Assembly (NCBI GenBank): GCA_024760545.1
Contig: CP060501.1
Coordinates: 3,550,036-3,614,035 of the forward strand
Direction of reading: 5' to 3'
DNA: 64,000 nucleotides
From: Nitrospira sp.
Lineage (GTDB): Bacteria; Nitrospirota; Nitrospiria; Nitrospirales; Nitrospiraceae
Position numbers and translations under genes: made by a program. Below, piece after piece: positions 42,197 to 53,401 of this stretch. Numbering within the stretch: position 1 is the first letter of the stretch; each line of letters starts with the position of its first letter. A model generated the notes under the pieces. It did no database searches. It had not been told where the DNA came from and worked only from the letters and a program-made list of their open reading frames with translations.

Positions 42197-42369
42197 TTAA
42201 ACGTACCCGCCGTTCTTTCAACGAAAGGAGCAGAGTTCGTGGCGGCTTATGGAGGCAGAGACCCGGGGCAGTGGATGGTGTCGATACCCAGAGTCGGGAT
42301 CTCTTCCTATCGGTATACCCATCTAAAAGTTCAAATTTGCACATTCGTACTAAACAAGGAGGTCTAGAC

Positions 42370-43194
42370 ATGGCATCACCTCAGGCGACTGCTGACAAAG
42401 GGTATGACATTTCACAGTGGTATGACTCGAAGCCGGTGAAGTTGGGCTGGCTGGCGATTCTGGGGATCGGGGTGTTTTGGGTGCTGTATCAACGGGCGTT
42501 CGGGTACTCGCACGGGTTAGACTCCATGACCCCCGAGTTCGATTCGGTGTGGATGGGGCTGTGGCGGTTTAACATCTTAGCGAACGCGGTGTTCTTTGCG
42601 ACGACGATCGGGTGGATCTGGGTGACGCGGGATCGGAACCTGGCGAACCTGGACCACAAGCTGGAGCTGAAGCGGTACTTTTACTGGATGGGCTGGCTCG
42701 TCTGCTACATCTGGGGGGTGTACTACGCGGGCAGCTACACGTTAGAGCAAGATGCGGCGTGGCACCAAGTGATCATCCGGGACACGAGCTTCACGGCGAG
42801 CCACATTGTGGCGTTCTACGGGACGTTCCCGTTGTACATCACGTGCGGCGTGGCGAGCTACCTGTATGCGCAGACGCGGTTACCGCTGTACGCCCAGGCG
42901 ACGTCGTTCCCGCTGGTGGCGGCGGTGGTGGGGCCGATGTTCATCCTGCCGAACGTGGGGTTGAACGAGTGGGGGCATGCGTTCTGGTTCGTCGATGAAT
43001 TGTTCTCGGCCCCGTTGCACTGGGGCTTTGTGACGTTGGGGTGGTGCGGGTTGTTCGGCGCGGCAGGCGGCGTGGCGGCGCAGATCGTGAGCCGGATGTC
43101 GAATCTGGCGGACGTGATCTGGAACAACGCGCCGAAGAGCATCCTGGATCCGTTCCCCAGCCAGGTGGGCCCCGGGCACAAGACCGTGTACTGA
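42370..43194 (+). CDS. amoC: Ammonia monooxygenase subunit C
   Basis: Membrane subunit of copper ammonia monooxygenase, 274 residues with about six helices. It keeps the conserved copper ligands of the AmoC/PmoC family, D128, H132 and H145, in the motif [18 protein letters not shown] (DxxxH then x12 H), so it looks catalytically competent. The enzyme oxidises ammonia to hydroxylamine at the inner (intracytoplasmic) membrane. An AAGGAGG ribosome-binding site precedes the ATG. The gene is followed by amoA and no amoB. Codon use inside amoC (many G-ending codons such as GTG, GCG, CGG) differs from neighbours, as expected for a highly expressed or transferred gene. Confidence 0.96.
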
Positions 43195-43320
43195 CAAGAC
43201 TGGTCCTGAGGAGTGACGGTCAATTAGATGGACGTCCAAAACGTAGCTTGTGCTGGAACGGCAGACCGGGTAGGCCGGATCCGCCGCTCCAGCCGGCTGG
43301 AATGACGGAGGATGTCAGTT

Positions 43321-44163
43321 ATGTTTAGAACCGATGAGATTATTAAGGCCTCGAAGTTGCCGCCGGAAGGCGTGGCGATGTCCAGGCACATCGATTACAT
43401 TTATTTCATTCCGATCTTGTTTGTGACCATCGTGGGCACGTTCCACATGCACTTCGACCTGCTGGCGGGCGACTGGGATTTCTGGATTGATTGGAAGGAT
43501 CGGCAGTGGTGGCCGATCGTGACGCCCGTCACGGCGATTACCTTTTGTGCGGCTCTCCAATATTACAATTGGGTGAACTATCGCCAGCCCTTTGGGGCGA
43601 CGATCACCATCCTGGCGCTGCTGGCCGGGAAGTGGGTGACGATCGTGGCCGCCTGGTGGTGGTGGTCGAACTATCCGTATAACTTCGTCATGCCGTCCAC
43701 TCTGCTGCCGAGCGCGCTGGTGCTGGACATCGTCTTGTTGTTGACCCGGAACTGGACGTTGACGGCGGTGATCGGCGCGTGGCTGTTTGCCGCGTTGTTC
43801 TATCCGACCAACTGGGCCATCTTCGCCTATAGCCATACGCCGCTCGTCATCGACGGCACCTTGCTGTCGTGGGCGGACTACATGGGCTTTGCGTATGTTC
43901 GGACCGGGACGCCGGAGTACATTCGGATGATCGAAGTGGGCTCGCTACGCACGTTCGGCGGGCACAGCACCATGATCTCCTCGTTCTTCGCGGCGTTCGC
44001 GTCGTCGTTGATGTACATCCTGTGGTGGCAGTTCGGGAAGTTCTTCTGCACATCCTACTTCTACCTGACGGATGACCGGCAGCGGACGACCAAAGTGTAC
44101 GATGTGTTCGCGTACGCCACGTTGGCGAACCAGGACAAGGCCAAAGTCGGAGGGAAAGCATGA
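43321..44163 (+). CDS. amoA: Ammonia monooxygenase subunit A
   Basis: AmoA of 280 residues, a polytopic membrane subunit of ammonia monooxygenase and the usual marker gene for ammonia oxidisers. The sequence begins [17 protein letters not shown] and runs through the conserved [24 protein letters not shown] and [33 protein letters not shown] regions. I chose the ATG at 43321, 9 bp after GGAGG, rather than the ATG at 43312 which is too close to it. Comammox-type (Nitrospira) rather than betaproteobacterial assignment rests on the chromosomal context, not on a phylogeny. There is no amoB; ftsH follows after 84 bp. Confidence 0.96.
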
Positions 44164-44247
44164 ACGCCAAACACGCCTTTAAACGGTGATAAGAGCTTCA
44201 CAGAGCTAGGCTATCTGCTCAGACAGATCTATTGTGAGAGGCTACTC

Positions 44248-46053
44248 GTGAAAAGCAAAGCACAAACTGTACTGTTTTGGATGGTGGTAGGCCTGTCCAT
44301 GGTATTTCTTCTCAACCTATGGAACATGCCGACGCGCGTGTCAGAGGAAGAGATTATTTTTAGCGATTTCATGGCGAAGCTCGACCAGGGCGACATCGAG
44401 AAGGTCATCATCAAGGGACATCATATCAGCGGCGTATTAAAAGATAGTTCCCGGCTCCGAACCTACGCGGCGGACTATCCCGATCTCGTCCAGGTGCTGC
44501 GAGAGAAGCACGTTCAGATCGAGGTCAAACCACTCGATGAAAGCCCGTGGTACGTCCAATTTCTGATGACCTGGGGACCGTTCGTGCTCTTTCTGGGCCT
44601 GTTGTTGTTCTTCATGCGCCGGATGCAGGTTGGGAAGGAAGCTCTGTCCCTCGGGAAAAGCAAAGCCCGCATGCAGACGGATGCGCGGAAAAAGGTGACG
44701 TTTTCCGATGTGGCGGGAATTGATGAAGCGAAAGAAGAAGTACAGGAAACGGTTGAATTTCTGAAAGATCCTCGAAGATTCCAGAAACTCGGCGGACGCA
44801 TTCCTAAGGGTGTGTTGGTCGTAGGCCCGCCGGGAACCGGGAAAACATTGTTGGCTAAAGCGATTGCCGGTGAGGCGGGAGTCCCCTTCTTCAGCATCAG
44901 CGGTTCGGATTTTGTGGAAATGTTCGTGGGGGTCGGGGCCTCTCGCGTTCGGGACATGTTCGAACAAGCGAAAAAGCATGCCCCCTGTATCATTTTTATC
45001 GACGAGATCGACGCCGTCGGGCGGTCACGGGGGGCAGGGCTTGGCGGCGGAAACGATGAACGTGAGCAGACGCTCAATCAGTTGCTGGTCGAAATGGACG
45101 GATTTGATACGACGGAGGGTGTCATCCTGGTCGCAGCCACCAATCGGCCGGATGTGCTCGACCCGGCCTTACTGAGGACGGGTCGGTTCGACAGGCAAGT
45201 AGTGGTGAATCAACCTGACCTCCGAGGCCGTGCGCAGATCCTGAACGTGCATACGAAGAAAGTGCCGGTTGCAGCTGATGTAGAACTGGAGAAGATCGCT
45301 CGAGGAACTCCCGGTTTCTCAGGCGCCGACTTGGAAAACTTGGTCAACGAGGCTGCGCTTTGGGCTGCTCGTCAGAACAAGAACGAAGTCGGGGCCGCAG
45401 ACTTCGAAATGGCGAAAGACAAGATCATGATGGGCGCAGAGCGTAAGAGCATGATACTTACGGACGAGGAAAAACGAGTCACCGCCTATCACGAGGCGGG
45501 CCATGCTTTGATGGCCAAACTTCTGCCGGGCACCGATCCAGTTCACAAAGTGTCCATCATTCCAAGAGGCCGCGCACTAGGTGTGACCATGCAGTTGCCA
45601 ACCGACGATCGCCACAATTACTCAAAAGAGTTTTTGCACAATAGGCTGGCGATTCTCATGGGTGGTCGAGTCGCGGAAGAACTGGTATTCAAGCACGTCA
45701 CAACCGGAGCCGGCAACGATCTGGAGCGTGCAACCGAGCTCGCGCGCAAGATGGTCTGCGAATGGGGCATGAGCGAAAAGCTGGGGCCGCTGACGTTCGG
45801 GCAGAAAGAGGAATCGATGTTTCTGGGACGCTCCTTTGGGGGCAGGCGTGATGTCAGCAGTGAAATGGCGCTGGAAATCGATCTGGAGATCAAGCGTCTT
45901 GTCACAGAAAGCTACGAGCGGGCCAAGCAAGTCCTCACCGAACAGATGGTGAGCTTGAAGGCGCTGGCGGCAGCACTCTTGGAAAAAGAGTCGCTGGATG
46001 GGCCGGAAATCGACCGGATTATTCTACAGTCTTCTCCAGTCGCTTCTGCCTAA
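44248..46053 (+). CDS. ftsH: ATP-dependent zinc metalloprotease FtsH
   Basis: AAA+ membrane protease of 601 residues. Two hydrophobic helices (about 8-25 and 104-123) bracket a small periplasmic loop; the ATPase has Walker A GPPGTGKT (193-200), Walker [12 protein letters not shown] (248-258), the [21 protein letters not shown], and the protease has the zinc motif HEAGH at 415-419. It degrades misfolded or unassembled membrane proteins. The start is a GTG. It is slightly shorter than the usual about 640 residues at the C-terminus. Next to amoCA it could control the quality or turnover of monooxygenase subunits, which is inference; extra ftsH paralogues are common. Confidence 0.95.
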
Positions 46054-46111: not shown

Positions 46112-49100
46112 TCACTCTTCCTGAATCACGAGTAACAGCTTTCCGGCGGAAACATGCTCTCGCTCCTGGCAATATAGCTGTTGCACAGTCCCATTCACCG
46201 GAGATTGGACCGTGAGCTCCATTTTCATCGATTCAAGAATAACTACCGGGCTTCCCGCAGTGACGCGCTGTCCGCTCGCCACGAGCAATTTCCACACAGT
46301 ACCCGTTACGTGCGCAGTGATGGCGTGGGCCCCTTCGGGAAGATCTATCTCAGCTGATGGTTCTGCCGGGCCGGATTCGGTGTCACTGATGTACTCCGCC
46401 TGACCACTGCTCCTCCAGCGCTCGCGCTCGGCTTCAAATGCAGCTTGCTGCTTGGTTTTGAACGCGCTGATCGAGGCGGCATTCTGTTGCAGGAACGTAT
46501 TGTACTGTTTCAGGCTGAAGGTCGTTTCTTCTACCTTCAACTTAAGTCGTCCAGCTGTGAAATCCTTGCGCAGTTCCAGCAGTTCGCTCCCGCTCACGGG
46601 ATAGAAGCGAATCTGATCGAAAAAGCGCAGCAGCCAAGGGTTGCCCTGCTTGAAGTCGCCGGTTTGACGATAGCGATTCCACATTTGTACGGTGCGTCCG
46701 ACGAACTGATATCCGCCGGGGCCTTCCATGCCGTAGATGCACAGGTACGCGCCACCTATTCCCACCGCGTTCTCCGGAGTCCAGGTGCGTGCCGGGTTAT
46801 ATTTCGTGGTCACAAGGCGGTGGCGGGGATCCAGCGGAGTCGCGACCGGCGCACCCAGATACACGTCCCCCAATCCCAATACCAGATAGCTCGCCTCAAA
46901 TACGATTCGATGCACCTCCTCAATGCTACCGAGACCATTGATGCGACGGATAAACTCGATATTACTTGGACACCACGGCGCATCGTTGCGCACGGACTGC
47001 ATATATTTATCGATGGCGACCTGTGTCGCCGCATCGTCCCATGAAAGCGGAAGATGCACGATGCGCGTCGGCACTTCCATTTCATCGATAGCGGGGAGGC
47101 TCTTCTCTGCATCCACCAGGATGTCGAGCAGCCTGGCACGCGGCAACACTTGGGGCTGAAAATGAATCTGCAGGGACCGGATACCGGGCGTCAGGTCCAC
47201 GATTCCTTTCAGATGATCCCGGTCGATTGTTTGCTGGAGCCATTCCATCAGGGCGTGCGCATGAAAGCGAAGATTGAGGTCGAGTATCGGCGGCCCATAC
47301 TCGATCAACAGATTTTCGTCGCCCGCCTGGCGATACACGACCTGCATGTGCCGAGGGCCTTCAGGAATGTGATGCAAAATAGACTGGTCCAGCAGGTCGG
47401 CTTTCGATGGCTCCGGCACGATTGTGGGAGGTCGAAGGTCTTGGATGATTAGGTCCTGTGCGTGCTCAAGCGCCAATGCGTGTTCTGCTGAAATCCGGCA
47501 GAAGCGTACGCGATCACCCGGTTTGAGCTGACCTATCTTCCAGAGATCGGCGCGGACGATCGAGGCGGGGCAGACAAAACCGCCGAGACTGGGACCATCA
47601 GGTCCCAATATCACCGGCATATCGCCGGTGAAAATCACTGCGCCAAGGGCATAGGCATTGTCGTGGATATTGGACGGGTGCAGACCTGCTTCGCCTCCGT
47701 CGTGGCGCGACCATTCAGGCTTTGGGCCGATCAGGCGTACGCCGGTACGGCTGGAGTTGTGGTGGATTGCCCACTCGGTCTCAAAAAACATGCGGATATC
47801 GTCATCAGAGAAAAACTCCGGCGCTCCGTGTGGGCCGTACAGCACGCGGATTTGCCAGTTATCGGTATAGTTCGGAATCAATTCCTGCGGCACAGTGTGG
47901 GGGATGTGGTCGTGCATTGCCGCAATGTGCAGTAGGTCGCCACTGCGCAGAACGCGTCCGGCATGTCCGCCGAACTGGCCGAGGGTGAAGGTGGCCTTAC
48001 TGCCAAGGTAGGCGGGTACTTGAAAGCCGCCTTGCACGGCCAGATAGGCCCGGCAGCCATGGCTGCCGATTCGCCCGAACTGCAGCAATGCCCCTGCCTT
48101 GACCACATGCGATTGCCATTGCGCCAATGGTTTGCCGTCCAGATGCATCTCGATCGATGCGCCGGTTGCGGCAATGACGCTGTCGCAGTTGAAACGAAGG
48201 GTCGGGCCGATAACAGTGATCTCGAGTCCGGCCTCATCCTGTCGGTTGTTGACCAGGCGATTGGCCAGACGGAATGCCAGATCATCCATCGGGCCTGACG
48301 GCGGCACGCCGACTTGCCAATACCCCAGACGTCCTGGATAGTCCTGCACCGTCGTCTGCATTCCAGGGGTGAGCACCTCGATGGTCTCTGCGTGGTATCC
48401 AAATCCTTTGAGCACACCCGTCGTGTACCGACCGCTACGGAACGCTGCACCGTGTAGGACTTGCTTGAGATAATTCAAATTCGTTTCAATGCCGTGCAGG
48501 GCGGTCTTATGGAGGGCTGCCGTCAGGCTTGCAATGGCTTGTTCACGCTCCGGCTCACGGATAATAATCTTGGCCAGCATCGGGTCATAGTATGGAGAGA
48601 CTTCGACACCACGCTCCACCCAGGTCTCGACACGTGCTTCCGATGGAAAGTCTGCGGCCGTGAGTGTGCCGCAGGACGGTTGAAAATCTTTCGCCGGACT
48701 CTCGGCGTACACCCGTGCTTGAATGGCGACTCCTCGCGGTTGGATGTTGAGTGAATGCAGCGGTGGGAGATTCCCGGCAGCCTGCCGTACCATCCATTCC
48801 ACCAGATCAATGCCGGTCACTTCTTCGGTCACACCGTGCTCGACCTGCAGACGCGTGTTGACCTCGAGGAAATAGAACTCGCCACTGGAGGCATCGACAA
48901 TGTATTCCACCGTGCCGGCCGACTGATAATTGACCGCTTTCCCCAAGCGCGCGGCCGCATCCAGCAGGGCCTGACGCACGGACGGAGTCAGATTAGGAGC
49001 GGGGGTCTCTTCTATGACCTTCTGGTTGCGCCGTTGGACTGAGCAGTCACGTTCGCCCAGCGCGATCACCCCGCCCTTCCCGTCGCCGAAAATCTGAACC

Positions 49101-49726
49101 TCAATGTGGCGGGCATTTTCGACGTATTTTTCGAGAAACAAGCCGGCATCCTTAAAGTTGTTCTGTGCCAGGTATTTCACCGACTCGTACGCCTCGTTCA
49201 GTTCCTCTTTGTTCCGGCACAGACGCATGCCGATCCCGCCGCCGCCGGCTGTGCTTTTCAGCATGACGGGATAACCGATCTTTGCCGCCTCGAATACGGC
49301 GTGGTCGATGCTATCCAGCAGACCGGTCCCCGGAAGCAGCGGAACTTGATTCTGCATAGCCAGGGCGCGCGCCGTGTGTTTGAGACCGAAGGCGCGCATC
49401 TGCTCCGGGCTGGGGCCGATGAAGGAAATGCCTTGGGCCGCGCACTGCTCGGCGAAATGTGCCTGCTCGCTGAGAAAGCCATAGCCGGGATGAATGGCCT
49501 GTGCGCCGGTTCGTCTGGCAACATCCAAAATCTTGTCGGCGCGGAGATAACTGTCCGCTGCGACTCCGCTGCCGATCCAATGGGCTTCATCAGCCTCTAC
49601 CACGTGCCGAGACAAGAGATCGGCGTCTGTATACACAGCCACGCTTTCCACCCCGATACGGCGCAGCGTACGGATGATACGGCAAGCAATGGTGCCGCGG
49701 TTGGCAATCAGTACCTTCTCAAACAT
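46112..49726 (-). CDS. Biotin-dependent urea/guanidine carboxylase
   Basis: Large (1204 residues) multidomain ATP-dependent carboxylase: biotin carboxylase (about 1-450; [50 protein letters not shown]), KipA/allophanate-hydrolase-subunit-2-like domain (about 460-780), KipI/subunit-1-like domain (about 800-1010) and a C-terminal biotinyl domain with the lysine in ESMKMEL. Its riboswitch-controlled operon and the UAAP partners indicate the physiological substrate is guanidine, giving carboxyguanidine, although urea carboxylase is the traditional label. I chose the ATG at 49726, which overlaps the upstream stop by 8 bp. No allophanate hydrolase is encoded here. Confidence 0.92.
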
Positions 49727-50405
49727 GCGCAATCCCTTTTTCTGCCGGCTCCCATACCAACAAGCGAATCGGCGTGGGATTGAAGGCATTACAGGGGTTG
49801 TTGAGCTGCGGGCAATTCGAGATCATCACGACGACGTCCATTTCAGCGCGCATTTCGACATACTTGCCGGGCGCCGATACCCCGTCGACAAATTCAAGCC
49901 CGCCGGCGTCCGTCACCGGAACGTTCATAAAAAAGTTGATATTGCTGGGGAGATCGCGTTTGGTTAGGCCGAGTTGTTCACAAAGCGGATCGTGCGCCAA
50001 GGAATGGAGAAAACTATCTCGGCAGCTATGCATCGCATACTTGTCCAGTGCATAGCGAACTCTGTTGCTTTCCGACGCGCAGGCCCCGCCCAGCGTATCA
50101 TGACGCCCGCACGTGTCGGCGACGATCGTGAGCATGACGTTGCCGAAATTGGAATAGAGGTTGGTGCCAGTAGTCAAATACAGGCTTCTTTGCCGGCTGA
50201 TCGTGTCGGTGGCGCTATAGCGTTCCGGTGTATGAGCCGGGTTGAAGAACAGGGTATCGACCGCCTGGTTTCCTTCCAGATCGACAATGCGAAACGTCGC
50301 TCCTTTTTTTACCAGCTTGACCCACGGTTCGCCTGCGGGGCAGATCTCATCGACGACGGCATGCTCTGGATCAAGCCGGCTTTCGATCAGGTTGTGCACG
50401 CTCAT
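49719..50405 (-). CDS. Carboxyguanidine deiminase subunit, UAAP2-type (DUF1989)
   Basis: DUF1989-family protein of 228 residues, the urea amidolyase-associated protein 2 type. It shows the family segments [55 protein letters not shown], and [20 protein letters not shown], with conserved Cys/His that can bind zinc. UAAP1 and UAAP2 have been shown to act together as a carboxyguanidine deiminase (CgdAB), turning carboxyguanidine into allophanate plus ammonia. The ATG overlaps the UAAP1 stop in ATGA and follows a GGAGGTG site; its own 3' end overlaps the carboxylase start. Which of the two is named CgdA or CgdB I leave open. Confidence 0.9.
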
Positions 50406-51133
50406 TCGACACCTCCCTTACAGGCATACAATCGTTGAGTGTGTTGGAGACCTCGCATATTCTCAGCCAAACCCATACATTCTGCGGTGGATCCAGCCGG
50501 TGTAGGGAACAGGGCTAAGCGGACTGCACCTGGACGGTAGACTTTGGATGGGTCGAGCGGGTGCGGGGCGGCGGACAGCACAACCAGCGTATCCATTTCG
50601 AAGCTCAGATCGACGGAGTCGCCGGGTCTTTTGTTGTCGGCCTGAAAGGACAATTCGCCGGATGCGTTGGCCGTGATCTTACTGAAAAAATTAATGTTAG
50701 AGACGACATCCCGCATCCCTAAACCCCATTTGCCTAGCTCGATGAGCATCCCGTCCAGCCCGCTCCGATACATCTGATTCCGATGCTCCTGATATCGGGC
50801 GACACCGTATTGCTTCTCTATCAGCTCGGCATCACTCAATCCGCATGTAGTGTCATGCCAACCGGTCGTGTCTGCGGTAATGAAACAGAAAATGCGCCCC
50901 ATATCGGAATAGCAGGCATGTCCTTGGGTCAATCGGAAGGTATGTTGACACTTCAACGTATCCGCCATGTTGTACCGTTCCAATTTCTCTTCGTGGTTGA
51001 ACAGCAGCACTGCGGCGTTGGCTCTGCCTTCGACATCTTCCAGCCGCAGGGTCGTGCCACGGCGCACAATGCCGGACCAATGACAACCTCCGGGGACGTT
51101 TTCTTCCCAGAGCAAGGAATGAGCGTAATTCAT
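50402..51133 (-). CDS. Carboxyguanidine deiminase subunit, UAAP1-type (DUF1989)
   Basis: DUF1989-family protein of 243 residues, the urea amidolyase-associated protein 1 type. Typical segments are [54 protein letters not shown] and [11 protein letters not shown], then [10 protein letters not shown]. It forms the carboxyguanidine deiminase with the UAAP2-type protein downstream. I chose the ATG at 51133 because GGAGGAG lies 6 bp before it; an ATG at 51148 would start inside that site. It is the second gene after the permease in a transcript that begins at the riboswitch. Confidence 0.9.
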
Positions 51134-51164
51134 GTGTAACTCCTCCATAACGTAAGGCGATTGA

Positions 51165-52601
51165 TTAATTCTTGCGGAGACTGTTGGTCAGCACGTACAG
51201 CGTCGTCACTCCCAAGATGCCGCCGAGGACCAGCGGGACGGCCCAGAGTTGCCACCAAGGCGCATCGGGCGAGGTTGCATAGGGGCGGGGCCAGGCGATA
51301 TTGATGAATTCGAATACTGACCAGAGGAAGGCGATCGTATTGATGAGCAATCCCCAGGCGCCTAGCTTCAGCTGCCCTAACGAGGGGTCCCAACGGCCTG
51401 TAAGACGGGTGAAGAGTCCAACGCCCGTGGTCATTGCGAACATCGCGTACAACCCGCCCGTGCCGAACGCCAGTACCGTGGCGACCGCTTCGTCGTTGAG
51501 TCCGAAGAGCAATCCGAGCGTGGCGAGGAGAACCGTGAACATCACCGCGTTATGCGGGGCTCCGGCAGCGGTGACCCGACTCAGGACGGCCGGCATACTC
51601 CCCTCGCGTGCCATGGAAAACACAATACGGGATGTGTATTGCACCATAGATGACCCGCAAGCCAGAAACGCGATCATGACAATTGTCAGGAAAGGGGTTT
51701 CTGCCCAGGCTCCGAAGTTGTCGACGATCACGGGGGTGACGGGGTCTGACGCGGCGCTCGTGTGGACCAACGTGTCACGGTTGAAGCTGAGGGTGAGCGC
51801 GGCAGAGTTGAAGAGCACCACGCTTCCCACCATACAAAGGGACAAGAAGATCGCGCGCGGTACCATCCGCTTGGGATCATGAGTTTCTTCGGCAATGGTT
51901 GAGCAGGCATCGAAGCCGATGAACGCCCATCCGGAAATGGCGAGCGCCGCCAGAAACGCAGCCGTCTGGCTGGGGGCGGTTCCCGTCCCGAGATGCGCGA
52001 ACAGTTCGGAGAATTCATGTTGCCGGAAAAAGAGAAACAGCAGCAGCGCGACACCGAACGAGCCGACGATTTCCGCATAGACACCCAAGGAAATAAGGAA
52101 CTTAAATATTGAGACGTGGACCATGTTGAGGATGGTGCAAACCAGCATGAACACCGCGCCCCATATCACGAGGCTGACTCCCGTTCCACCTCCTGATCCG
52201 AAAAAAATCGCCAGCCAGACGCCGCCGGTGTAGGCGGTGGTGGTGAGCATCGCGATTGTGGAGCTGACATAGATGGCTCCGGCATATGTCCCCGTCGTGG
52301 AGCCTCCGAGCTGCCTCGCCCATTTGTACGCTCCACCCGCGATCGGAATCTGAGAGGACAGCTCCGCATACACGGTCGCCACCAGCAGCTGCATCACTAG
52401 ACAGAGCGCCAGCGCTGAAAACCAACCACCTCCGGTCACCACCGTCTGCACGCCGATGATGGCGTACAATCCTGCAACCGGCGAAACGGTTGCGAATCCG
52501 ATGGTGAGGCTGTTCCAGAGGCTGAGGCTGCGGTTGAGTGTCTCGGGAGCACTCGGAGCGGTAGCGGGAAACAGCATATCCGGATTGTCTTTAATCGACA
52601 T
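51165..52601 (-). CDS. APC-superfamily permease, probable guanidine importer
   Basis: Amino acid/polyamine/organocation permease of 478 residues with about twelve hydrophobic helices. It begins with a hydrophilic N-terminus and the first helix LWNSLTIGFATVSPVAGLYAIIG; the APC signature region SSQIPIAGGAYKWARQLGGSTTGTY and FIGFDACSTIAEETHDPKRM are present. As the first gene of a guanidine-I riboswitch operon with guanidine-degrading enzymes, it most likely imports guanidine or guanidinium. It has its own ribosome-binding site (GAGAGG 6 bp before ATG). A short upstream ORF overlaps its start. The substrate is inferred from the regulation and neighbours. Confidence 0.85.
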   Translation of the reverse strand: MSIKDNPDMLFPATAPSAPETLNRSLSLWNSLTIGFATVSPVAGLYAIIGVQTVVTGGGWFSALALCLVMQLLVATVYAELSSQIPIAGGAYKWARQLGGSTTGTYAGAIYVSSTIAMLTTTAYTGGVWLAIFFGSGGGTGVSLVIWGAVFMLVCTILNMVHVSIFKFLISLGVYAEIVGSFGVALLLFLFFRQHEFSELFAHLGTGTAPSQTAAFLAALAISGWAFIGFDACSTIAEETHDPKRMVPRAIFLSLCMVGSVVLFNSAALTLSFNRDTLVHTSAASDPVTPVIVDNFGAWAETPFLTIVMIAFLACGSSMVQYTSRIVFSMAREGSMPAVLSRVTAAGAPHNAVMFTVLLATLGLLFGLNDEAVATVLAFGTGGLYAMFAMTTGVGLFTRLTGRWDPSLGQLKLGAWGLLINTIAFLWSVFEFINIAWPRPYATSPDAPWWQLWAVPLVLGGILGVTTLYVLTNSLRKN

Positions 52602-52671
52602 GACAGACCTCTCTGCTTGGCAGCAGGCCTGCGTGATCCGGTACGGAAAGAACTATGGAGTGGAGATGCAT
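52591..52671 (-). CDS. Possible 26-residue leader ORF between riboswitch and permease
   Basis: A 27-codon frame starts at ATG 52671 with an excellent AAGGAGG site 7 bp upstream (52679-52685) and ends in a TAA that overlaps the permease ATG by several bases. It encodes MHLHSIVLSVPDHAGLLPSR and six more residues. The strong ribosome-binding site and overlap point to a translated uORF that may couple or tune permease synthesis, but I know of no such leader for guanidine operons. Confidence 0.45.
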   Translation of the reverse strand: MHLHSIVLSVPDHAGLLPSREVCHVD

Positions 52672-52712
52672 AACGAAGCCTCCTTGCCGAGCGGGTTAAG
52701 ATCCGAGAAGGC

Positions 52713-52730
52713 CATGTACCGCAGTACATG
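52713..52730 (-). promoter_or_regulatory. Hairpin directly 3' of the guanidine riboswitch aptamer
   Basis: A perfect palindromic hairpin, CATGTAC-TGCG-GTACATG (7-bp stem, 4-nt loop), lies directly next to the 3' end of the aptamer. No U-run follows, so it is not a standard intrinsic terminator. It may be part of the expression platform. Confidence 0.5.
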
Positions 52731-52837
52731 ATCTCCCGGGCTTTTATCCCTCCGTGGAGCCTCGTTATGCGAGACCGGAAACTCTCGGACCAGACGCTCC
52801 CAGTAAAGGCAGCCGGAACCCTAGTTTCCCCTTCGAT
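52731..52837 (-). promoter_or_regulatory. Guanidine-I (ykkC) riboswitch
   Basis: Reading the minus strand, all the most conserved blocks of the ykkC/guanidine-I aptamer appear in the right order: ACTAGGGTTCCGGC near 52824-52811, CTGGTCCGAGAG followed by a stem, CACGGAGGGATAAAAGCCCG and the closing GGGAGAT at 52731. Guanidine-I riboswitches turn on genes for guanidine export or degradation when guanidine binds. Here it precedes the permease, UAAP1, UAAP2 and carboxylase genes. No U-tract terminator is seen before the permease, so control may act through translation, or by another mechanism. Confidence 0.93.
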
Positions 52838-52843
52838 ATGTTT

Positions 52844-52872
52844 CTTTTACGGTCTTACAGCAGTAAAGTCAA
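52844..52872 (-). promoter_or_regulatory. Promoter of the guanidine operon
   Basis: On the minus strand, TTGACT (52872-52867) and TAAAAG (52849-52844) are separated by exactly 17 bp. The predicted start, near 52837, coincides with the first base of the riboswitch, and tadA ends 20 bp upstream. This makes it the best-supported promoter in the window. Confidence 0.6.
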
Positions 52873-52891
52873 GACAATGTATACACAGCCG

Positions 52892-53401
52892 TCAACAGTC
52901 CTTCTGTCGAGGTGTATGACCGGTGTTGTTGCCCGGTGCCCTGGACCGTAGACTTTGAAAAAATTCCTGCAAGAGTGCCTGGCTTTTCTCCTCGAGCAAG
53001 CCACCCTCGACGTCGACTTGATGGTTGAACCGGTGTTCGCCGGGGATGTCAATAATCGATCCGCACGCGCCCGCCTTGGGATCTCGGGCGCCAAATACAA
53101 GGCGTGCAATGCGGGATTGTACGATGGCTCCGGCACACATCGGGCAGGGCTCCAACGTCACATAGAGTGTTGTGTCAATGAGCCGCCAGCTCCGCAACTT
53201 CTCCGCGGCCTTTCGGATCACGAGCATCTCCGCATGAGCCGTGGGGTCCTGCGAAACCTCTCGGTAGTTGTGGGCAACGGCGAGCACGCCGTCTTTGTAG
53301 ACGAGGACGGCGCCGATTGGCACTTCTCCGATCAGCGGGGCAAGTCTAGCCTGCTGAAGGGCCAGTTCCATGTAGGAGGAATCAAGATCGTCTTGCTGCA
53401 T
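52892..53401 (-). CDS. tadA: tRNA-specific adenosine deaminase
   Basis: TadA of 169 residues, which converts A34 to inosine in tRNA-Arg(ACG). The zinc-dependent cytidine/deoxycytidylate deaminase motifs are HAEMLVIRKAA (with the catalytic Glu) and PCPMCAGAIVQSRI (two Cys ligands), with VPIGAVLVYKDG before and FGARDPKAGACGSI after. I chose the ATG at 53401, giving the usual N-terminus SSYMELALQQA; an earlier ATG adds a 15-residue extension without support. Its 3' end is followed closely by the guanidine operon promoter. Confidence 0.92.
   Translation of the reverse strand: MQQDDLDSSYMELALQQARLAPLIGEVPIGAVLVYKDGVLAVAHNYREVSQDPTAHAEMLVIRKAAEKLRSWRLIDTTLYVTLEPCPMCAGAIVQSRIARLVFGARDPKAGACGSIIDIPGEHRFNHQVDVEGGLLEEKSQALLQEFFQSLRSRAPGNNTGHTPRQKDC

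Follow-up and report, generated by a model that had tools for sequence, protein, structure and literature searches.

Does a guanidine-I riboswitch at the head of a carboxylase operon imply that a nitrifying Nitrospira draws ammonia from guanidine by way of that carboxylase? The question is raised by a locus in the 64,000-nucleotide stretch of contig CP060501.1 analyzed here (the window), for which a preliminary description proposed that guanidine supplies the ammonia monooxygenase pathway through a route different from the guanidinase already reported in comammox bacteria, where guanidinase-based use is indeed known from N. inopinata (PMC11410670). The reading we favor, with moderate confidence, is that a guanidine-I riboswitch acts here as a translational switch on an uptake operon, that the imported guanidine feeds mainly a guanidinase and urease, and that the carboxylase is of doubtful or changed activity.

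The identification of a guanidine-I (ykkC) aptamer was borne out by a covariance-model search, in which the locus matched the full Rfam model RF00442 (Guanidine-I; model positions 1-107, E 1.7e-15) with 92.9 bits, the gathering score being 63; no other copy was found in the genome (4.81 Mb, two contigs). The promoter described ahead of it, with a 17-bp spacing, could likewise be located: of 48 Nitrospira-family leaders, 47 have TTGAC[AT] ahead of the aptamer, and in 44 of these a hexamer starting with TA comes 17 nt later. A generic promoter scan returned no sites at the leader, missing the TTGACT-17-TAAAAG pair because its second hexamer is poor. Family matches over their cut-offs place the downstream genes in the order previously given (permease, UAAP1, UAAP2, carboxylase), with ftsH as the next gene past the carboxylase on the opposite strand (Table 1). 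Judged by these matches, the riboswitch and its operon are real.

The host was also correctly recognized. The window carries amoC and amoA, and a second amoC-amoA-amoB set and hao lie elsewhere in the genome, which is by gene content that of an ammonia oxidizer, assigned to comammox by amo and hao. The copy in the window (42271-46053) reads amoC-amoA and then ftsH, without amoB; the second copy (locus L069, 7734-10769), complete with amoB, shares 96.9% with it over 1.79 kb. Hereafter G000 denotes the window's genome and G117 another genome of the same species, whose contig stops shortly beyond ftsH.

Table 1. Features of the guanidine-I locus in window coordinates
Feature	Positions	Strand	Basis and remarks
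Promoter	52844..52872	-	TTGACT 52872-52867, 17 nt, TAAAAG 52849-52844; read from sequence
Guanidine-I riboswitch aptamer (RF00442)	52731..52835	-	92.9 bits, gathering 63
3' arm and loop of aptamer P3, GCAUAACGAGGCUCC	52756..52770	-	Alternative partner 52683-52668; MFE, consensus fold, pair counts
Anti-P3 segment, GGAGGCUUCGUUAUGC	52668..52683	-	Overlaps Shine-Dalgarno AAGGAGG 52685-52679, contains AUG 52671-52669; sequence, MFE, consensus fold, pair counts
Upstream ORF (uORF), candidate	52591..52671	-	26 codons and stop; layout conserved across leaders
APC superfamily permease, predicted guanidine importer	51165..52601	-	PF13520 126.4 bits; tree
UAAP1 / carboxyguanidine deiminase subunit CgdA	50402..51148	-	TIGR03425 318.5 bits, cut-off 205.95
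UAAP2 / carboxyguanidine deiminase subunit CgdB	49719..50405	-	TIGR03424 334.6 bits, cut-off 284.7
Biotin-dependent urea/guanidine carboxylase family enzyme	46112..49789	-	1225 aa; TIGR02712 1921.8 bits, cut-off 1303.85
Carboxylase codon 719 (ATT, Ile)	47633..47635	-	K. lactis Asn1330 position, Asp in guanidine carboxylases; alignment

In the minimum free energy fold of the leader (-95.6 kcal/mol; z -2.49, matched or bettered by one of 200 shuffles), the P3 arm (52770-52756) is paired with the anti-P3 segment (52683-52668). The consensus fold computed for 53 leaders arrived at this pairing without being directed to it, together with a second pairing over the Shine-Dalgarno sequence. These 53 leaders, out of 55, comprise 46 from the Nitrospira family, so named rather than comammox because, of the 49 genomes in which the riboswitch was matched, 10 carry no AMO match, and 7 from ammonia-oxidizing bacteria (AOB); G058, whose leader has no Shine-Dalgarno-AUG segment, and G098 were left out under our Shine-Dalgarno-AUG rule, and the leader of G077 was not located. 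Over 50 distinct rows, 92.6% of cells in the anti-P3 pairing are paired, as against 31-53% in slid versions. Two-sided changes occupy nine cells (shuffled mean 1.9, none of 500 as high; up to seven cells in slid versions) and four pairs (6 of 500 shuffles as high; up to five in slid versions), and further pair types show no excess over shuffles (243 of 500 as high). Since the leaders are related, the covariation in this pairing is modest.

The reading frame opened by the hidden AUG ends 8 nt past the first base of the permease start codon, so that the two overlap. In the 48 of 55 leaders amenable to this analysis (42 Nitrospira-family, 6 AOB), the hidden AUG lies in the permease frame in 10 (8 Nitrospira-family, 2 AOB), and in 36 of the other 38 the uORF stop lies no more than 12 nt from a permease-frame start. 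In the 34 Nitrospira-family uORFs this distance never exceeds 8 nt, with four different geometries, and the exceptions without overlap are both from AOB (L106, 57 nt; L122, 14 nt). For a single sequence, a stop within 14 nt of the permease-frame start arises by chance in 13-19% (0.13-0.19) of Nitrospira resamplings and 4-7% of AOB resamplings; the kinship of the leaders rules out multiplying these chances.

We predict on this basis that the leader is a translational ON switch, with control exerted either by uORF coupling or straight at the permease start. In the absence of guanidine, the P3 arm would pair with the downstream GGAGGCUUCGUUAUGC and hide the Shine-Dalgarno sequence and the AUG; guanidine would stabilize P3 and free both, whereupon ribosomes would translate the 26-codon uORF and restart at the overlapping permease start. 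Expression would be switched mainly at translation, with Rho termination of untranslated RNA perhaps added. The guanidine-I class is described in PMC12186494, PMC12508155 and PMC11410670, as far as their passages on the subject go, as usually or presumably transcriptional, and the leader could be supposed to act likewise by transcription termination, the Shine-Dalgarno pairing being incidental. However, a scan of 52500-53000 found no terminator-like site and the pairing over the Shine-Dalgarno and AUG is conserved, and we regard termination as distinctly unlikely. No translational platform or uORF for guanidine-I was found in the open-licence literature, which does not prove that none has been described.

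The adjacent UAAP1 and UAAP2 genes both score over cut-off as carboxyguanidine deiminase subunits (the CgdA and CgdB labels follow published usage), and the carboxylase matches the urea/guanidine carboxylase family (TIGR02712) over its full length and above the curated cut-off. Two Nitrosomonadaceae MAGs (L101, L110) have the carboxylase directly after the permease, with no CgdA/CgdB match within the locus.

The two halves of the operon have different affinities. At the DNA level, riboswitch and permease share 86% identity with the guanidinase locus of G116, whereas the operon taken as a whole shares 76% with the carboxylase operon of G147. A permease tree of 67 rows puts the window inside a 33-row clade (support 100/100) in which 28 of the 31 rows from other species carry a PF00491 match in the guanidinase score band within 3 kb downstream of the riboswitch, the exceptions being G058, G085 and G105. 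The carboxylase, in a quick tree of 50 rows (LG+G4, SH-aLRT only), belongs to a different, 8-row clade (SH-aLRT 100) made up of the window, G117, G147, G155, palsa_1310 (the same contig as G136) and three Nitrosomonadaceae MAGs; a single Nitrospira carboxylase clade is compatible with the data (p-AU 0.643). Clades A and B are presumably the genera g1 and g17, respectively. At the level of sequence, these comparisons establish the operon as a hybrid of a native leader and permease with a foreign CgdA-CgdB-carboxylase cassette. The simplest reading is that the cassette replaced a guanidinase behind the native leader and permease, and the tree fixes neither the direction nor the donor.

Whether the acquired enzyme is a guanidine carboxylase can be judged from two residues, numbered after K. 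lactis urea amidolyase. According to PMC11410670, guanidine carboxylase needs Asp at 1584 and, to set it apart from urea carboxylase, Asp at 1330; PMC12186494 similarly gives Asp in guanidine carboxylases and Asn in urea carboxylases. We aligned 85 rows, consisting of 80 loci, the window, G117, G136, G147 and G155; true urea carboxylases lie outside this sample because the 80 loci are the closest of 572. The first residue is D975 in the window and Asp in 85/85 rows. At the second, position 719, Asp occupies 83 of 85 rows (82 distinct, as G136 and L099 are one contig), and Ile occurs only in the window and G117; two rows are partial, yet cover the site. Because Ile719 replaces Asp, the window enzyme falls outside the published definition of guanidine carboxylase (PMC11410670), and it does not carry the Asn of urea carboxylases either. 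All three proteins score over their family cut-offs, but the claim that these genes make guanidine carboxylase is weakened by this residue, as it is by the allophanate hydrolase that was not found.

Two trivial accounts of Ile719 were rejected: sequencing error, as ATT is present in two separate assemblies of the species that differ elsewhere, and a pseudogene, as the 1225-codon frame is intact and dN/dS is about 0.12. More precisely, dN/dS is 0.10-0.13 against relatives, dS being close to 1 or higher wherever the window is one of the pair, and 0.10-0.14 among the relatives themselves. When 83 long rows are compared, D658E, A694S and D719I are the window's only changes at otherwise invariant sites, all in the carboxyltransferase domain and within 62 residues; G117 additionally has G699S at such a site. 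Other rows show 0 to 6 such changes, making the window's number ordinary and its location unusual. CgdA (65 rows) and CgdB (74 rows) show no departure at sites invariant in the other rows, and this conservation, with the purifying selection on the carboxylase, argues against plain decay. The clustering of the three changes under persisting selection could mean that Ile719 reshapes the pocket to fit a different substrate, for instance a substituted guanidine or another urea-like compound. We give this little credence, as the neighboring genes indicate no such substrate and the riboswitch and permease are still of guanidine type; we give less still to the compound proposal of an Asp-to-Ile carboxylase with a new substrate in an operon joining a native leader, with its translational guanidine-I switch and coupled uORF, to a foreign cassette.

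The last step of the carboxylase pathway is also in question. No allophanate hydrolase match (TIGR02713) over cut-off was found in G000, G117, G136, G147 or G155, and only one of 175 family genomes (G071) has one. G000, G117 and G147 each encode one amidase-family (PF01425) protein, which is GatA-like. A split allophanate hydrolase was considered and dismissed: the TIGR02713 match at G000:C1:3646324 is GatA-like, and the other match consists of a C-terminal domain alone, with no amidase domain. This lone domain (L070, 8811-9392), for which the genome offers no amidase domain, adjoins two BiuH-like genes (biuret amidohydrolase; one over cut-off) and an ABC nucleoside-type transporter, and the published 'atzF' of Nitrospira_D, going by what PMC12625717 gives of it, might be the same kind of gene.

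Urease genes are present in the window's genome. In one of them (L071, 8695-8990, minus strand) an RF02514 (5' ureB sRNA) match of 95 bits lies antisense to the coding sequence and probably reflects conserved coding DNA. Because urease is present and allophanate is said, in a passage of PMC3944691, to decarboxylate spontaneously to urea, a carboxylase route could end in urease, and any allophanate formed would take this course. It may be argued from this that the operon is an ordinary guanidine carboxylase operon in which Ile719 is tolerated and CgdAB make allophanate that yields urea for urease: the frame is intact, selection is as strong as among relatives, D975 is retained, and CgdA and CgdB are fully conserved. 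We nevertheless consider this unlikely, since 83 of the 85 rows have Asp at 719, D658E and A694S both lie near it, and a hydrophobic Ile would be unable to provide the charged contact that guanidinium should require. The sequence does not secure a working carboxylase route.

An alternative is encoded elsewhere in the genome. A putative guanidinase (G000:C1:1149981-1150808; PF00491, 258.9 bits) scores within the band of riboswitch-linked guanidinases, its assignment being based on this band and on 89-96% identity to relatives' guanidinases, many of them at riboswitch loci. It adjoins an ammonium-transporter-like gene (named by eye) and is 95-96% identical to the guanidinases of G077, G087, G111 and G115, the last three of which gave no riboswitch match. 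The locus (L068, 9434-10615) represents a guanidinase lineage away from guanidine-I riboswitches, common to G087, G111, G115 and a second G077 copy, with partly shared neighbors. Control by a second guanidine riboswitch was discarded, no match at Rfam thresholds being found in the 19.5 kb around the gene (L068). Compared with 25 other rows, the sister strain's copy and the badly broken L096 being excluded, the species' guanidinase has three mild changes at otherwise invariant sites (G61A, A90S and A181S).

The distribution of guanidinases bears on a further possibility, that the carboxylase, made redundant by the unlinked guanidinase, is losing its function while its carboxyltransferase site drifts. 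Consistent with this, Asp719 goes with the lack of any guanidinase-band PF00491 match in G136 and G147 (99% complete) and in G155 (81%), both Ile719 genomes have such a match, and G117 has added G699S. However, the missing guanidinase of G155 counts for little in a genome 81% complete; the frame is intact, purifying selection spans the whole branch and CgdAB are conserved; three unusual changes are not many, the same species' guanidinase also having three; and the carboxylases of G000 and G117 differ too little for a test of recent selection. We hold loss of function to be possible, if rather doubtful. In the reading we favor, imported guanidine would be broken down chiefly by the unlinked guanidinase together with urease, yielding ammonia for Amo, and the carboxylase would have reduced or altered activity. 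Of the two routes, that through guanidinase and urease is the likelier. The earlier proposal thus stands in that guanidine may feed nitrification in this organism, but its different route is unproven because of Ile719, the allophanate hydrolase that was not found, and the presence of a guanidinase-type ureohydrolase and urease.

Genome-based claims of guanidine use by nitrifiers accordingly need qualifying: a riboswitch and a 'urea carboxylase' are insufficient, because in the window's genome neither the diagnostic residue nor the final enzyme is present. The Ile719 enzyme offers a natural test of the role of Asp in guanidine carboxylase, and the leaders yield a prediction for nitrifiers, namely that the guanidine-I switch controls translation, either by way of a uORF or at the permease start itself.

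Comparison with known systems places these features in context. Almost all comammox genomes are reported to hold guanidine degradation genes (PMC12342949), and PMC11410670 records that 56 of 83 comammox genomes carry guanidine-I riboswitches, in every case ahead of an APC permease and mostly with a guanidinase next, and that only two encode the carboxylase pathway, one of them behind riboswitch and permease. The riboswitch-carboxylase arrangement in comammox is therefore not new, being already in PMC11410670; what is added here, from sequence analysis, is the hybrid operon, Ile719, the lack of an allophanate hydrolase match alongside urease and an unlinked guanidinase, and the predicted translational switch. 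The locus resembles the N. inopinata-type riboswitch-APC permease-guanidinase locus (PMC11410670) in aptamer family, leader layout and permease clade, but has CgdA-CgdB-carboxylase downstream and its guanidinase elsewhere in the genome. With the AOB operon of Nitrosospira and Nitrosomonas, as outlined in PMC11410670, it shares the riboswitch-permease-CgdA-CgdB-carboxylase order and enzymes 68-83% identical at most loci, whereas the permease is only 67-78% identical, the AOB enzymes retain Asp719, and the published AOB strains have an allophanate hydrolase. The closest carboxylases are those of G147, G136 and G155 (other Nitrospiraceae, genus g17), together with three Nitrosomonadaceae MAGs; unlike the window, these three Nitrospiraceae keep Asp719, have permease clades of their own and lack a guanidinase-band protein. 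About 1.4 kb upstream of the permease in the G136 operon (L073, 1-1396) holds no RF00442 match at gathering score. As a riboswitch predicted to act on translation of a small uORF, the leader is comparable to the M. tuberculosis Mbox with its translational platform, from which, by the account in PMC12810186, it differs in that the Mbox is an OFF switch with another ligand and aptamer and unrelated genes.
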